From Clostridiaceae bacterium (GTDB lineage Bacteria; Bacillota; Clostridia; Saccharofermentanales; DTU023): DNA of 43,236 bases. This document shows, piece after piece, positions 16,216-43,236 of the stretch. The stretch is from NCBI GenBank assembly GCA_012841145.1, contig DUVH01000034.1:1-43236 (forward strand). Reading direction: 5' to 3'. Both the position numbers and the translations under genes were made by a program. Under the pieces are notes generated by a model that did not search any database, was not told where the DNA came from, and saw only the letters and a list, made by a program, of their open reading frames with translations. The stretch's first letter is position 1. The number at the start of each line of letters is the position of its first letter.

Positions 16216-16842
16216 TTAAAAGCGACCTTCATAGAGAGCGTTCAGGCGCGATTGCACGTCATACATCATGACAAAGCCGCCGATTCCGAGCAGGATGCTC
16301 AGTAAAATCCACGTCAGGAATTTCTTCGACGTGATGATACCTCTCCTGCGATCAATTTCGACGAGCGCATCGTCAACCTGTGACCACAACAGGAAGGTGA
16401 AGATGAAGCACAGGAGTCCGAAGAACGTGTAATTCGGTTTTGTCGCCTCATACCCCAGAACATAGTTCATCTCTTTCGAGACAGAATAGAGCCAGATAAT
16501 TCCGTAGATACCGCAGGTGATAATGCTCAGGAAAATAACCATTCCGGGCGAACGGACTTCACCGCGAAAACCTGTCAACGGCGGTGCGGCCTGTTGGTAA
16601 CCATATGGCGGTTGCTGGTACTGCTGCTGGTACGGAGGCTGCTGTTGTTGGTACTGCTGCTGGTACGGGGGCTGCTGGTACTGCTGACCGGGAGGCGGAC
16701 TTTGCTGCTGATTAGCATAAGCGTAAGGCTGACCCTGCGCAGGTTGTCCTGAGGCCGGGGGTTCGGTGGGAATCCGAGCTCCACATGTCGTACAGAATAC
16801 GGCATTATCGGGAACAGGATGTCCGTTTGGACAAGTTTTCAT
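16216..16842 (-). CDS. Zinc-ribbon, Gln/Pro/Tyr-rich, DUF4234 membrane protein
   Basis: The 208-residue protein has three parts. Residues 1-24 form a zinc ribbon (CPNGH then CTTCG). Residues 27-90 are a Gln/Pro/Tyr-rich linker of YQQ and PPYQQ repeats. The C-terminal 110 residues are a DUF4234 domain with about three membrane helices (MVIFLSIITCGIYGIIWLYS is the signature segment). The ATG at 16842 is preceded by AAAGAGG nine bases upstream; a longer frame to 16932 lacks such a site and adds sequence unlike a zinc ribbon. Its function is unknown. The gene is convergent with the DUF2752 gene and divergent from the penicillin-binding protein gene. Confidence 0.82.
   Translation of the reverse strand: MKTCPNGHPVPDNAVFCTTCGARIPTEPPASGQPAQGQPYAYANQQQSPPPGQQYQQPPYQQQYQQQQPPYQQQYQQPPYGYQQAAPPLTGFRGEVRSPGMVIFLSIITCGIYGIIWLYSVSKEMNYVLGYEATKPNYTFFGLLCFIFTFLLWSQVDDALVEIDRRRGIITSKKFLTWILLSILLGIGGFVMMYDVQSRLNALYEGRF
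16617..16682 (-). repeat. 33-bp tandem repeat coding for the Tyr/Gln/Pro linker
   Basis: A GGTACTGCTGCTGGTACG core at 16617 and again at 16650 marks two copies of a 33-base unit. It encodes 11 residues of the linker and keeps the frame. Slippage within it would change linker length without breaking the protein. Confidence 0.6.
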
Positions 16843-25083: not shown

Positions 25084-27015
25084 ATGGCGGAAACAGATCA
25101 ACTTGCGCTCTATAGGTTGTGGCGTCCGCAGACTTTTTCGGAAGTCGTCGCTCAGGAGCAAATTGTCTATCCTCTGCGCCAGAGCGTTATCAACGGGAAT
25201 TTCTCGCACGCCCTCCTCTTCTCCGGAACACGCGGCACGGGCAAGACATCCCTTGCAAAGATTTTTTCAAAAGCGATCAATTGCCTCAATCCCGATCGCG
25301 GCGATCCGTGTAACGAGTGCGAAATATGTAAAGCCGCCAATGACGGCTCGCTGATGGACATCAGCGAAATCGATGCCGCCTCACATAACAGCGTCGACCA
25401 TATGAGACGCTTGACGGACGAGATCGTCTTCACGCCGCTGAGAGCGCGGTTCAAAGTCTACATCATCGATGAGGTTCACATGCTGTCCGTCGGCGCCTTC
25501 AACGCGCTCCTCAAAACGCTTGAAGAACCGCCGTCGCACGCCGTCTTCGTCATGGCGACGACGGAACCTCACCGCATACCTGCGACGATCATTTCGCGTT
25601 GTCAGCACTTTAAATTCCGTCGAATACCGAACGATGAGATCATCGAGCGTATCCGACTCATCGCCAAGAGCATTGACCTTGACGTGGATGACGGCGCTTT
25701 TGAGATGATCGCGATGCTTTCCGGCGGGGCGCTGCGCGACGCCATCAGCTTGCTCGACCAGACGAGGCAGTTAAAGACGGCACCTGTCACGCGCGACGAT
25801 GTCCTGACCTTGGCGGGACTCGTACCCGATCGCTTCCTTTCCGAGACGGCGGAAGCAATCCTCTTTAAAAAACCGGAAATACTCCTCATCAACATTCAGG
25901 AGCTCGTCATGTCGGGACGCGACCTGACGAGATTCGTCACGGATCTCGGCGCGTACTTCCGAAATTTGCTCGTCGCGAGCGTTTCAAAAAGACCAGAACA
26001 ACTGATTCAGCTTCGCGGTGAAGATATCGAACGGATGAAAGTGATCGCGCGACAGACGGAAACGTCGGTCTTGACGGAATTGATAGCAGGCCTCTCACAG
26101 CTCCTCGTTTCAATGCGTCTATCACCCGATCTTCGTACGACGCTCGAAATCGGACTCATCGATCTTTTGACACGATTTGGTGTCGTAAGCGGTGTAGAGG
26201 AAGCGATTTCTCCCCGCATTCATCAAAAGAAAGATATACTTCCACCTGCCCGGGAAGTCGATAGCGTGAAAATAGAACCGGAATTGGAGCCGGAACCGCA
26301 ATCGGTGCCCGAGCCGGAGATTGAGACATCAACTGAGACTGATACGGGAACTGCAGAAGACAAAGCGCTCAGGGACACGGATGTGCTGAGTGTCAAAGAA
26401 CCTCCGCGGGAAGAGCTCCCGAGCATTCCGGCAAAAGATGCTGATACGATCGCAGATGAGGGGGCCGTTGAAAAAACTCTGCAGGAAGAGTCTCTGAGCA
26501 TTCCGGCAAAAGATGCCGATACGATCGCAGATGAGAATGATGTTAAAAAACCTCTGCAGGAAGAAGATTCGTCCCCCACCGAAGAAAATGATGACGTGAC
26601 AACTCAAGATGACTCGAGCGAGCAGCCGTCATCCGACACTATGATGACGGTGAAAGGCGAGATGCCCGTACTTGACGTCTGGCGGGCCGTCCTCGACGAC
26701 TTGCAGAGAGAGAGGCGTATGGACATTGCCCTCTGCGCACGCCCCGCACGCGTTCACATAGACGGCGACACGTTCGCCATTCATTTTGACGCTCATCTGA
26801 GAGGACAGCACAGCTGCCTCTCCCACGCTGACAATGCGCGCTTGGTTCAGCAGCTGCTCTCGCAGCATGCGGGCGAGAAGGTCGAGCTTCGCGTCGTCTT
26901 GGATGAGAATCACGATCGATTGGTGGGAGACTCAGCAGAGTGGGACTGGCTGAAGCAAGCGAGAGAAAAAGCGCTTATCGAAGAAATCCCGTCTCCGCGA
27001 GGAGATAACGAATAG
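25084..27015 (+). CDS. dnaX: DNA polymerase III subunit gamma/tau
   Basis: This is the clamp-loader ATPase of the replisome. The 643-residue protein has Walker A GTRGTGKT (48-55), a zinc module with Cys at 67, 76, 79 and 82, Walker B IIDEVHM (127-133) and the sensor region TEPHRIP. After the clamp-loader core (about 1-365) comes a Glu/Pro/Thr-rich linker (about 380-525) with a 25-residue tandem repeat, then a folded C-terminal domain. GAGGTG lies five bases before the ATG. It starts a dnaX-ybaB-recR group behind the SRP RNA. I see no standard E. coli-type frameshift site for a separate gamma form. Confidence 0.96.
   Translation: MAETDQLALYRLWRPQTFSEVVAQEQIVYPLRQSVINGNFSHALLFSGTRGTGKTSLAKIFSKAINCLNPDRGDPCNECEICKAANDGSLMDISEIDAASHNSVDHMRRLTDEIVFTPLRARFKVYIIDEVHMLSVGAFNALLKTLEEPPSHAVFVMATTEPHRIPATIISRCQHFKFRRIPNDEIIERIRLIAKSIDLDVDDGAFEMIAMLSGGALRDAISLLDQTRQLKTAPVTRDDVLTLAGLVPDRFLSETAEAILFKKPEILLINIQELVMSGRDLTRFVTDLGAYFRNLLVASVSKRPEQLIQLRGEDIERMKVIARQTETSVLTELIAGLSQLLVSMRLSPDLRTTLEIGLIDLLTRFGVVSGVEEAISPRIHQKKDILPPAREVDSVKIEPELEPEPQSVPEPEIETSTETDTGTAEDKALRDTDVLSVKEPPREELPSIPAKDADTIADEGAVEKTLQEESLSIPAKDADTIADENDVKKPLQEEDSSPTEENDDVTTQDDSSEQPSSDTMMTVKGEMPVLDVWRAVLDDLQRERRMDIALCARPARVHIDGDTFAIHFDAHLRGQHSCLSHADNARLVQQLLSQHAGEKVELRVVLDENHDRLVGDSAEWDWLKQAREKALIEEIPSPRGDNE
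26421..26570 (+). repeat. 75-bp tandem duplication inside dnaX
   Basis: Two adjacent 75-base copies (26421-26495 and 26496-26570) are nearly identical over their first 40 bases and diverged after that. Each encodes 25 residues beginning SIPAKDADTIADE. Being a multiple of three, the duplication lengthens the acidic linker without breaking the frame. Confidence 0.85.
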
Positions 27016-37379: not shown

Positions 37380-38678
37380 CTATTTTACCATGACGTTCGG
37401 TTCGGGCAGGAACTCGCCTCCGCGGTACCTCGCCACGATGTCGCGGTCATCACCCACGAATATAAAACGCTGCAGCCTCTCCAAAACGTCAAGCGGACGA
37501 TAGCGCGACAGTCGGCCGTCATCAATTACGAGAGCATCAAAGGAATAGTCCGGAATCAACGCGCCTGTCTTGCCGAAAAATGAGCCGCCCGCAAACGTTC
37601 CCATCCAGAACGCCTCGGCAAAACTGATGATCCGCGACGACCGATCGGTGAGAGCCCAACGTAAGCGCGAGTGTTTCATCGCGGACGACATGTGGTACCC
37701 CATAAAGAGGCGGTTACCGCCGCCAATGTCGGAGCCGAGCCCGATCCTGATCCCTTTATCGATCATGTAAGTTGACGGCATAATTCCCGAAGCGATGTTC
37801 GCGTTGGACGCGGGGCAGTGCGCGACGAGAATATCGCGCTCTCGCATCATTTCGAGCTCCTCATCCGTATTGTATATGCAGTGCGCCATCACCGTACCGC
37901 GCTCCGGCAACAAATCGAAATCGTGATAGACAGACATATAATCTCTCGAATCGGGAAAGAGGCTTTTCACCCATTCAATTTCATCTAAGTTTTCATTGGC
38001 GTGCGACTGGACCGGCAATTTCCGCTTGACCGACAAATCGCCGAGCCAACGCATCAGCTCCGGCGTGCACGAAGGGGCAAAGCGCGGCGTCAAGATCGGT
38101 TTCACGCCGCTGCTTTCAAAAGGAGCCATCAAATCAAGGTACCGCAACGTCTCCCTAATTGACTCCTCCGTTGTCTCCTCGAGATCAATTCCGCCGTTTC
38201 TATCCATGTTGACCTTTCCGACGTATGCAGACAGCCCCGCCCCAACCAACTTCTCCGCCAAGAGGACAGTCGCATCCGTATTTATGCTGGAAAAGATCGA
38301 ACTGTGAAGCGTCCCGCACGACCAGAGATCATAAACGAGATCGGCAAAGACGCGCGCCGCATAATCGCGACCGGCGAATCGCGCCTCCTCAGGGAAAGTG
38401 TAATCGGTAAGCCAAGGGAGGAGTTCTTTATCGTATCCAAGACCGGTCGTTACATACTGCACGGCGTGAAGATGGACATCGGAAAAAGCCGGAATTATAA
38501 GTTTGCCTTTCCAATCAACCTCAATGACGTCATCACCAACCGATGGCTTTATTAACGTTATTTCTTCCAACACGCCGTCGCGGACGAGCGCATACGCGTT
38601 TTCATAAACGGTAAGTTCGCCCGGTTCCGGGCGCGCCGTAACAAAATCTCCGTGAAAGAGATAATTTTTCTTAGACAT
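37380..38678 (-). CDS. guaD: Guanine deaminase
   Basis: The enzyme converts guanine to xanthine and ammonia in purine salvage. The 432-residue amidohydrolase has the zinc motif DVHLHAVQ (67-74; His69, His71), LLPWLTDYTFPEE which is typical of guanine deaminases, SHANEN with the third ligand, TVMAHCIY, and LGSDIGGGNRLFM with the catalytic Asp. Length matches the family (about 430-440). The ATG has AAGGAT upstream. It diverges from the chromate transporter genes, with promoters close together. Its last codons ATG GTA AAA TAG contain the likely nagB -10. Confidence 0.93.
   Translation of the reverse strand: MSKKNYLFHGDFVTARPEPGELTVYENAYALVRDGVLEEITLIKPSVGDDVIEVDWKGKLIIPAFSDVHLHAVQYVTTGLGYDKELLPWLTDYTFPEEARFAGRDYAARVFADLVYDLWSCGTLHSSIFSSINTDATVLLAEKLVGAGLSAYVGKVNMDRNGGIDLEETTEESIRETLRYLDLMAPFESSGVKPILTPRFAPSCTPELMRWLGDLSVKRKLPVQSHANENLDEIEWVKSLFPDSRDYMSVYHDFDLLPERGTVMAHCIYNTDEELEMMRERDILVAHCPASNANIASGIMPSTYMIDKGIRIGLGSDIGGGNRLFMGYHMSSAMKHSRLRWALTDRSSRIISFAEAFWMGTFAGGSFFGKTGALIPDYSFDALVIDDGRLSRYRPLDVLERLQRFIFVGDDRDIVARYRGGEFLPEPNVMVK
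37382..37390 (-). promoter_or_regulatory. Candidate nagB promoter within the end of guaD
   Basis: The minus strand reads TGGTAAAAT, the same element as before the PBP gene, inside the Met-Val-Lys-stop codons of guaD. A start near 37375 would leave a leader of about 38 bases for nagB. No -35 is clear, so a chance match is possible. Confidence 0.35.
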
Positions 38679-39965: not shown

Positions 39966-41747
39966 TTAGCTGAACTGAGCCTGATAGAGGTCGGCGTACG
40001 CTTCTCCTCTCGCGAGAAGTTCATCGTGTGTACCCTGTTCAACAACTTGCCCGTCTCGGAGCAATACGATCTGATCGGCGTTTCTGACTGTCGACAACCT
40101 GTGCGCGATAACGAACGATGTGCGCCCCTGAACAAGCTTATTCATGGCGTCCTGTATCACGATCTCCGTCTGGCTGTCAACGTTGGAAGTCGCCTCGTCG
40201 AGAATCAGCATCGGCGTATCGAGCAACATGGCGCGGGCAATCGTCATCAGCTGTTTTTGACCCTGAGAAAGGTTGGAGGCGCTGTCACTGATCAAGCTGT
40301 CATACCCCCTCGGAAGCGATTCAATATACGATGCGATATGTGCGGCTTCCGCGGCTCTCCTCACCTCTTCCAACGTCGCTTCCGGTTTCCCGTAGGCGAT
40401 GTTGTCGCGGATTGTCCCTTGGAACAGCCACGTATCCTGAAGAACCATCGCGAAAGAACGGCGGAGGCTGTCCCTTGTGACATCGAGAAGGTTCTTTCCG
40501 TCAATGCGAATTTCACCTTCCTGCGGGTCGTAAAAACGCATGAGCAAGTTGATCAGCGTCGTCTTTCCAGCTCCTGTCGATCCTACAATCGCCAAAAGCT
40601 CGCCCGGTTTCGTCTTGATGCTGAGGTCCTTGATTACAGGCTGATCCTCTGTGTAAGCGAAAGATACGCGATCGAACTCAACGACACCGCGGACGTTTTC
40701 GAGAGGCAGGGCATGTTTCGCATCGGGCGGCTCGGGCGGTTGCTCGAGAAGCGTAAAGACGCGCTCGGCAGCCGACAGAGCAGATTGCATTTCCGCGATA
40801 ATGGCGGCAATTTCGTTGATCGGTCCGGAAAAACGACGCGAATATAGAATGAAAGACGTTAAAATTCCAATCGTAAAGCCACCCTTGAGAAAGAGCGATA
40901 CGCCGATCATCGCGACGAGAGCCAAAGACAAATTGCTGATCAACGTGACGGACGGTCCGTTCAGCGCCGCCTGATAGTCAGCGCGGTAGTGCGCATCAGA
41001 TGCTTCCTCGTTGATCCCGCAAAACTCCTCGGTAAAAAACGACTCTTTGCGGTACGCGCCGATCGTCTTCTGCCCGAATAAAATTTCCTCTACGTATCCG
41101 TTCATCTCGCCGAGTTTTCTGGAGCGCTTACGGAAAAGAGGACGCGTCTTCTTAATCCTATAAATCGTAAAAAGAACCGTGATCGGGATGAGCGCTAAAA
41201 ACGCCATGGAGAGAGCGACTGACATCCTGAACATCATGACGAGCGAGCCGACGACCGTGATCATGCTGGCGGCGATCACGATGATATCCTGAGAAATGGC
41301 GGTGCTGACGACGTCCAAGTCGTATGAGATGCGCGAGACGAGATCACCTGCCTGATGCGTATCGATGTAAGAGAGCGGCAAGTCGATGATTTGATCGAAC
41401 GTGTCCTGTCGCATGCGAGCGATAACACGCTTTGAAGTGCGCGCGATCAGACGAACCATCATATAGTTCAGAATAGCCGAACCTGCGTACGCAGCCAACA
41501 TGAGGAGCGACTTAGTCAAGACGGCATCGAACTGTACACCGCCGGCATCGATACCCATCGCGTCAACAGCTTCACCGCTGAGGCGAGGACCGGCAAGGGC
41601 GAGAATATTTGCGAGGAGCAGAAGTACGAGCCCTATCAAAAACGACGGCCACTCGGGCTTGACGTATTTAACCAGCCCGCGAAAGACCTTCCGATAGTCG
41701 CGAGTCTTATGCTCCTTTTGCTTTGAGGTTACAGTCGAATCCGTCAC
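39966..41747 (-). CDS. ABC exporter half-transporter, catalytic subunit of the second pair
   Basis: The 593-residue protein has a six-helix domain (about 25-330) and an ATPase domain with Walker A GSTGAGKTT, Q-loop VLQDTW, an atypical signature LSQGQKQ, Walker B LILDEATSNVD with catalytic Glu, and IIAHRLSTVR-like switch (VIAHRLSTVR). It is the catalytic half of a heterodimer with the gene upstream, comparable to the 11797-15512 pair. The start is GTG with AAGGA ten bases upstream. The 36-bp repeat array fills the space between it and its partner. Substrate is unknown; drug or lipid export is typical. Confidence 0.92.
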   Translation of the reverse strand: MTDSTVTSKQKEHKTRDYRKVFRGLVKYVKPEWPSFLIGLVLLLLANILALAGPRLSGEAVDAMGIDAGGVQFDAVLTKSLLMLAAYAGSAILNYMMVRLIARTSKRVIARMRQDTFDQIIDLPLSYIDTHQAGDLVSRISYDLDVVSTAISQDIIVIAASMITVVGSLVMMFRMSVALSMAFLALIPITVLFTIYRIKKTRPLFRKRSRKLGEMNGYVEEILFGQKTIGAYRKESFFTEEFCGINEEASDAHYRADYQAALNGPSVTLISNLSLALVAMIGVSLFLKGGFTIGILTSFILYSRRFSGPINEIAAIIAEMQSALSAAERVFTLLEQPPEPPDAKHALPLENVRGVVEFDRVSFAYTEDQPVIKDLSIKTKPGELLAIVGSTGAGKTTLINLLMRFYDPQEGEIRIDGKNLLDVTRDSLRRSFAMVLQDTWLFQGTIRDNIAYGKPEATLEEVRRAAEAAHIASYIESLPRGYDSLISDSASNLSQGQKQLMTIARAMLLDTPMLILDEATSNVDSQTEIVIQDAMNKLVQGRTSFVIAHRLSTVRNADQIVLLRDGQVVEQGTHDELLARGEAYADLYQAQFS

Positions 41748-41793
41748 TTTCGCTCTATCCTTACCCTTTTATTTCTCTTTTTCATATTCGTTG

Positions 41794-41990
41794 CGCAACT
41801 ATGGTATTCGTATGATCCGTATGCGCTACGCAGCTCAGATGTTCGCTGCTATCCGTATACGCTTCACAACTCAGGCAATCGCTACTATCCATATACGCTG
41901 CACAGCCCAGGTGTTCGCTACGATCCGTATACGCTGCACAACTCAGGTATTCGCAATTATCGTTATGCATTGCGCAACTCAGGCAATCGC
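41794..41990. repeat. 36-bp tandem repeat array (about 5.5 copies)
   Basis: Units begin at 41794, 41829, 41865, 41901, 41937 and 41973, each opening with a CGCAACTCAG- or CACAACTCAG-like sequence and ending near CCGTATACGCT. The first unit is 35 bases, the rest 36. There are no unique spacers, so it is a minisatellite and not a CRISPR. The last unit contains the stop codon of the adjoining ABC gene: 17 bases at that gene's end (AGCGATTGCCTGAGTTG on the minus strand) recur exactly in the third unit. Being a multiple of three, the array stays open as 12-residue periodic peptides on both strands. None has a ribosome site. Confidence 0.9.
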
Positions 41991-43236
41991 TTCGGCATCA
42001 TCATGCCATTCGCCCATCTGCATCTTTGCAATCTCACGGTATTTTTGGCTCTCCCGCATCACCGTATCATGGTCACCCATCGCACTGATCTTTCCGTTCT
42101 CCATGAAAATAATCTGATCGGCGTGACGGATGGAACTCACGCGTTGCGCGATGATAATCGACGTCGTCGCGCTGTAGTGATCTCTTAGAGCGCGGCGCAA
42201 CTTCGCGTCCGTGCGAAAATCGAGCGCGCTTGAGGCGTCGTCGAGGATCAGTATCTCCGGATCGCCCGCCAATGCGCGACTCAAGAGAAGGCGCTGTTTC
42301 TCACCGCCCGACAAATTAACGCCCTTAGAAGCGAGAGCAAAGTCAAGTCCGCCCTCTTTTTCAGCCAAGAATGTACTCGCCTGCGCATGTTCCGTTGCCT
42401 CTCCGATCAACTCATCCGAAAGTCCGCGCCCGAAATCAACATTCTTACGCACCGTGCCGCCGAACAGAAAATCGTTCTGAAACACGATGCCGAACAAGTT
42501 GCTCAAAGCTTCCGGCTTAATCGTCCGAATGTCGCGTCCGCGTATGAGTATCTCACCCTCCTGAACATCGTATTGGCGCAGAAGAAGGCGTATCAACGTG
42601 CTTTTGCCCGACCCAGTCGGTCCCATAATGCCTAGAGTCTCACCGGGATATAACACAAAAGAGATGTTCTCAAGATCATTTTTAACGCCCAGATAACTGA
42701 AGCTGACATTCTTAAATTCAATTTCCGGAACGGATGAATCCGATTCTCCCACCGATGAAGCATCTTCCGGGATTATCTGGTTCTCGTCGATCGGCATCGT
42801 AAGGACTTCTCGGATACGCTCAATCGACGCAACGGCGCGATTATAGATATTGAACATGCGGTTCAGGCCAAGAAGCGAGTTTGTAATCAGAATAAAGTAG
42901 GACAGAAAGGCCAAGATCGTTCCCGTTTGCAGCATCCCGACGTTGACGAGTTGAGCCCCGAGTAAGAGGACAGCTGTAAGCCCAGTGTACAGAATGATAT
43001 TGACGAGCGGAGACATCATCGCGATCTGATCGATCGCACGAACCTCGGCCGTTCGCACATCCTCATTCGAGACGCCGAACCGTTCCTTTTCATAATCCGT
43101 GCGATCGAGTGGAAATCTCGGCCGCCGAAGGCCACCTCCTCGCTCTAAAAAGTCCGGTCGCGCGGAGCAAGAAGGCCACCTTCCGCGGAGTCGGAAGTCC
43201 ACCCAGCGCGGTGCATGAAGGCCAGTGACAAAGAGA
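41979..43236 (-). CDS. ABC exporter half-transporter, degenerate subunit, N-terminus disrupted or off the window
   Basis: The reading frame is open to the right edge. From RTDYEKERFGV (near 43104) onward it is a normal exporter: last part of the membrane domain (MMSPLVNIILYTGLTAVLLL), Walker A GPTGSGKST, Q-loop IVFQND, signature LSGGEKQR, and Walker B LILDDASSALD with Asp replacing catalytic Glu, marking the degenerate half of a heterodimer with 39966-41747. Upstream of 43104 the expected membrane-domain sequence is replaced by Arg/Pro/Gly-rich residues encoded by 22-23-bp repeats. So the gene is either broken or carries an insertion; the rest of its N-terminal membrane domain may lie beyond the window. 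A GTG at 43202 is a formal but doubtful start. Confidence 0.8.
   Translation of the reverse strand, partial: LFVTGLHAPRWVDFRLRGRWPSCSARPDFLERGGGLRRPRFPLDRTDYEKERFGVSNEDVRTAEVRAIDQIAMMSPLVNIILYTGLTAVLLLGAQLVNVGMLQTGTILAFLSYFILITNSLLGLNRMFNIYNRAVASIERIREVLTMPIDENQIIPEDASSVGESDSSVPEIEFKNVSFSYLGVKNDLENISFVLYPGETLGIMGPTGSGKSTLIRLLLRQYDVQEGEILIRGRDIRTIKPEALSNLFGIVFQNDFLFGGTVRKNVDFGRGLSDELIGEATEHAQASTFLAEKEGGLDFALASKGVNLSGGEKQRLLLSRALAGDPEILILDDASSALDFRTDAKLRRALRDHYSATTSIIIAQRVSSIRHADQIIFMENGKISAMGDHDTVMRESQKYREIAKMQMGEWHDDAEAIA
43127..43236. repeat. 22-23-bp degenerate direct repeats at the window edge
   Basis: Units start at 43127, 43149, 43171, 43194 and 43217, opening with GAAGGCCACC, AAAGTCCGGT, GAAGGCCACC, GAAGTCCACC and GAAGGCCAGT, and sharing GCGCGG-like second halves. 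The block is richer in GC than its neighbours. It continues to the edge, so its full extent is unknown. Confidence 0.75.

Follow-up and report, generated by a model that had tools for sequence, protein, structure and literature searches.

Introduction

Insertion sequences of the IS21 family are the closest described systems to the locus reported here. In one source (PMC10122671), the ends of the IS21-family element IS5376 are described as carrying two or more direct repeats to which IstA binds; integration requires two complete repeats, IstB is essential, and insertions obtained in vitro are flanked by 5-bp direct repeats. According to a second source (PMC11208146), multiple IS21 repeats may keep the transposase inhibited until IstB binding. 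The present locus and its relatives resemble the IS21 family as described there (IS5376 and IS21, with IstA and IstB; PMC10122671, PMC11208146) in having TG...CA ends, several direct repeats of about 22 bp per end and, in the elements of relatives, istA followed by istB and short direct repeats around insertions. Unlike the usual IS21 arrangement of two or so units per end, however, 4-5 units with GC-rich spacers are observed here, and the hosts are uncultured Clostridia.

Two other systems invite comparison. The BrickBuilt MITE of Porphyromonas gingivalis (PMC4596501) is likewise transposon-derived, has a 23-nt unit and coincides with assembly gaps, but differs in its ends, which match the IS5 family, in its unit sequence and in being always intergenic. 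The TnsB/Mu-type ends of Tn7 and Mu also contain several transposase-recognised copies per end (PMC10122671), yet the genes next to the ends of the complete relatives are istA and istB and not those of Tn7 or Mu. In the present study, we analysed a repeat block in an exporter gene at the edge of the window, i.e. the whole stretch of 43,236 bp under analysis, which is contig C14 of a host assembly of 1.57 Mb in 41 contigs (91% complete).

Results

The truncated exporter gene

The exporter gene that runs into the block is accompanied by an intact exporter gene and a tandem array, as follows.

39966..41747, minus strand: intact neighbouring ABC exporter gene of 593 aa, probably encoding the partner subunit (from gene order)
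41785..41991, no strand: tandem array of a 36-bp unit in 5.8 copies, lying between the exporter genes (single place in the host genome)
41979..43109, minus strand: truncated ABC exporter gene, 376 codons plus stop (from orthologue comparison and Pfam)

The truncated gene lacks the N-terminal 205-206 codons present in its intact counterparts, and the Pfam matches comprise a complete ABC_tran domain and the C-terminal third only of ABC_membrane. Intact orthologues of 580 aa are present in genomes G004 and G009 (87% identical in both cases), together with one of 576 aa in G006 (71%). A search of the 91% complete host assembly for the missing N-terminal part yielded only paralogues with at most 28% identity.

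The order of both exporter genes is shared by G004 and G006, and the gap between them is 231 bp here versus 97 bp (G004) and 116 bp (G006). When the 36-bp array in this gap was sought as a dispersed repeat, one site only was found in the host genome, with just 21-base matches in two relatives. The earlier note had remarked that two different repeat blocks flank this gene; the second block is indeed present and differs in sequence, but it is a local array unrelated to the IS21 end. Further tandem arrays were observed in the window at 26395-26564 (75-bp unit) and 16611-16686 (33-bp unit).

Boundary and repeat units of the block

The homology of this minus-strand gene to the orthologues of G004 and G009 ends at the 43109/43110 boundary, with 103/120 matching bases up to 43109 and 27-28/120 past it. 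The stop of exporter sequence that had been placed near 43104 is therefore a true loss of homology, but its position is this boundary instead. The block at 43110-43236 has a GC content of 0.622, above the values of the window (0.534) and of the exporter gene (0.516); its first bases, at 43110, are TGGAAATC, a TG-type terminus, and it contains five degenerate units of the form RARKCCR (GAAGGCCA type) with spacings of 22, 22, 23 and 23 bp. A chain of five units was observed in 0/5000 dinucleotide shuffles, in which the maximum was three; outside the block, no chain in the window exceeds two units. These results agree with the previous description of at least five GC-rich, degenerate repeats at the edge. 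The features of the block are listed below.

43110..43236, plus strand: very probable IS21-family left (istA-side) end, cut by the contig edge (from unit offsets, identity to the complete element L070 and the copy in contig C9)
43110..43125, plus strand: outer terminal inverted repeat TGGAAATCTCGGCCGC, a TG...CA type end (partner in short and complete copies)
43127..43134, plus strand: unit 1 (GAAGGCCA), putative transposase-binding site (unit match at L070 offsets)
43149..43156, plus strand: unit 2 (AAAGTCCG; unit match at L070 offsets)
43171..43178, plus strand: unit 3 (GAAGGCCA; unit match at L070 offsets)
43194..43201, plus strand: unit 4 (GAAGTCCA; unit match at L070 offsets)
43217..43224, plus strand: unit 5 (GAAGGCCA; unit match at L070 offsets)

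Several other identities were considered for the block. A tandem minisatellite in the coding region was rejected, since a terminal inverted repeat leads into the units and the same ends occur at unrelated sites. An RNA element was also rejected, as Rfam gave no match in the block; compared with shuffles, the plus strand of the block folds no better (z 0.57) and its minus strand weakly (z -1.69). Integron attC-like sites, an idea prompted by an asymmetric hairpin, were discarded after istA and istB had been found beside similar ends.

Relatives of the block and complete elements

Sequences similar to the block were found by BLAST in 10/59 genomes at E 0.01 (two of them, in G045 and G002, are unlike element ends and appear due to chance), in 8/38 genomes of the family at E 0.001 and in 9/188 genomes of the order at E 0.0001, each of these sets including the genome of the window itself. 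The pattern TGGAAATCNCGNNCGC was present in 8/38 family genomes, with matches at L073, L074 and L079 that are unlike element ends and possibly due to chance, and the reversed-pattern control was present in 0/38.

In G030, a related Clostridiaceae MAG, a copy of the block (L070) lies directly upstream of an IS21 transposase ORF, which is followed by IstB. The transposase scored 211.9 bits with NF033546 (transpos_IS21; cut-off 160), and IstB scored 188.6 bits with PF01695 (IstB_IS21) and 201.4 bits with NF038214 (cut-off 200). This istA-istB element is 2,590 bp in length, is bounded by a perfect terminal inverted repeat of 16 bp and is flanked by CATTT on each side, and its istA frame appears to be disrupted. 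Two further complete elements, similar in their ends and repeat spacing, were examined, L068 (2,601 bp, GACAG on both flanks) and L067 on a G012 contig (2,611 bp, no clear target duplication), the latter with an istA frame of 544 codons free of stops; a target duplication, of 5 bp, was thus observed in two of the three. In two Bacillaceae IS21 copies used as yardsticks, two to three units per end were counted by eye, and the 4-5 units per end of the present elements are therefore on the high side.

The unit offsets in the block (18, 40, 62, 85 and 108) are those of the L070 left end, the closest complete left end, to which the block is identical at 87/127 positions (about 69%) without gaps, compared with 44/127 for the L070 right end and 56/127 for the best match elsewhere in the window. 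The block was also aligned with one IstB-side end and four further istA-side ends, two of the latter again at contig edges. The sequence GACAAA follows unit 5 in the window and also occurs in L070, where it precedes istA, and at a contig end of G061. The inverted repeats are of the TG...CA type, with TGGAAATC at the left end in the window and partner right ends in complete relatives and short copies. Taken together, the block at 43110-43236 very probably represents the left terminal array, on the istA side, of an IS21-family element within the ABC exporter gene, and its five units would, by analogy, bind IstA. The earlier note had considered a repeat element inserted into the membrane-domain coding region; an insertion at this place is upheld, but in the form of an IS21 terminal array and not of an element of its own kind.

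No match to istA (NF033546) was detected in the host assembly (91% complete), none of 188 genomes of the order yielded a complete element whose end is exactly TGGAAATCTCGG, and a search for the exact end in named species genomes and viral contigs found none. With istA, the right end and the duplication missing, the copy may be complete or an internal-deletion derivative, and the kind of end is unaffected.

A second copy in the host genome and the contig break

Positions 43110-43235 recur without a mismatch (126/126) and in unchanged orientation as the final 126 bases of contig C9, and the shared sequence opens with TGGAAATC in both contigs. Two genomic places run into one sequence, and therefore the assembler stopped there; the contig break is the result of a multi-copy element, whose identical copies collapse in short-read assembly. 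Similar ends at contig edges were also observed in G003, G028 and G061, indicating that breaks at such elements recur across genomes. In G061, one contig terminus is a left end with GGCCAATGACAAAAAG after the last unit, versus GGCCAGTGACAAAGAG in the window, and another contig opens on the corresponding right end, which runs into the codons for the IstB C-terminus (by eye). The earlier note had suggested a search of the genome for the 22-23-base unit; the host genome contains this identical end as well as short copies in contigs C13 and C38, and the idea that the contig edge lies at a dispersed repeat proved correct. Insertion and dispersed-repeat edge had been offered as alternatives; both hold simultaneously.

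Short hairpin derivatives

Fused ends occur as hairpins of 51-94 bp, with one or two units per side, in relatives and in the host genome. Eleven complete short copies were accepted, a count that leaves out ten loci repeating the window contig or fetched neighbours as well as weaker ends outside the selection (e.g. L012 and L023). Exact flanking duplications of 5-7 bp were present at 6/11 short copies compared with 0/110 mismatched flank pairs; three of the other copies have one mismatch in six, and two are without a duplication. The folds are strong: in five copies, for which six foldings were computed, z ranges from -2.2 to -6.1. As is expected of MITEs, the copies in C13 and C38 are devoid of a transposase gene, and their two ends lie no more than a few hundred bp apart. 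The block in the window does not belong to this short type.

Several details of these copies were also recorded. The copy in C13 (about 37407-37482; L003:1465-1540) is a 76-bp hairpin with AACTGGA on both flanks, located at the truncated N-terminal side of a gene that we take to be aminomethyltransferase-like, and the copy in C38 (C38:4826; L090:1501-1555) is a degenerate 55-bp hairpin with GCTTGG on both flanks. The hairpin arms of L003, L008, L020, L021 and L022 carry regularly placed mismatches, left GCGCTCGCAAAAGG versus right TCGGCCGCCGAAGG, by which the left end can be told from the right end in every one of them. The duplications at short copies are 5-7 bp, mostly 6, versus 5 bp at two complete elements, both samples being small.

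Discussion

The explanation proposed here, an IS21-family insertion cut by the contig edge, was weighed against three others. It is unlikely, but the most serious of the three, that the block belongs to a long non-autonomous MITE with a full five-unit end mobilised by an IstA from elsewhere. Small derivatives sharing these ends are common (eleven complete, two of them in the host genome) and the host assembly is without istA, as would be expected under this explanation. However, the short copies are only 51-94 bp with one or two units per side, whereas the block has five units and the GACAAA stretch, and complete elements in multiple collapsed copies are exactly what a short-read bin would lose. 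An assembly artefact, with a false join between the exporter contig and a repeat and an undamaged gene in the cell, is very improbable. The block does lie at a contig end and is common to another contig end, but the terminal inverted repeat begins exactly at the junction in both contigs, which fits insertion and not a random misjoin, and the contigs of G003, G028 and G061 also end at such elements.

Least credible of all is a free-standing repeat element encoding an Arg-rich protein insertion. The reading frame is open up to the contig edge, as the earlier note observed, but the same is seen in 1875/5000 shuffles, and the open frame therefore carries no weight as evidence for a protein insertion. 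Moreover, the frame through the repeat varies among copies adjoining other genes, and the repeats are accounted for by IS21 ends. The exporter with an added Arg-rich segment, for which the open frame had been the sole basis, is accordingly not upheld.

On the preferred explanation, the exporter gene was probably broken by insertion, and the following mechanism is proposed. IstA tetramers would bind the repeated units of the block, and IstB, an AAA+ protein, would pick and deform the target DNA. The element would then be pasted into the exporter gene with a short target duplication, the left copy of which is predicted as follows.

43105..43109, no strand: left target-site duplication, predicted (TCGAG for a length of 5 bp; by analogy with the 5-bp duplications at complete relatives)

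The stretch from the window edge to the missing N-terminal codons of the exporter would hold about 2.6 kb of istA-istB sequence and a right end; istA is expected past the contig edge, reading in the plus direction, and the right end on the far side is expected to be of the GCGAGCG-GATTTCCA type.

Thus, what appeared as a puzzling repeat block in an exporter gene becomes a named mobile element, and the stop of the contig is explained. The feature of the window is real and is ordinary mobile-element biology. As a caution, GC-rich blocks of 22-23-bp units at the contig ends of such MAGs can be IS21 ends and not new families.

For the wider group, we consider it somewhat more probable than otherwise that a clade of uncultured Clostridia harbours an IS21 branch with 4-5-unit ends and fused-end hairpin derivatives of 51-94 bp with 5-7-bp duplications. 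A limited literature search found no report of IS21-derived MITEs, which is a weak negative. The 4-5-unit ends and the miniature hairpins derived from them extend the descriptions of IS21 modestly. If the hypothesis is true, these derivatives would constitute an IS21-derived MITE family with long hairpins and a conserved left/right asymmetry, which could seed the genome with transcribed hairpins.
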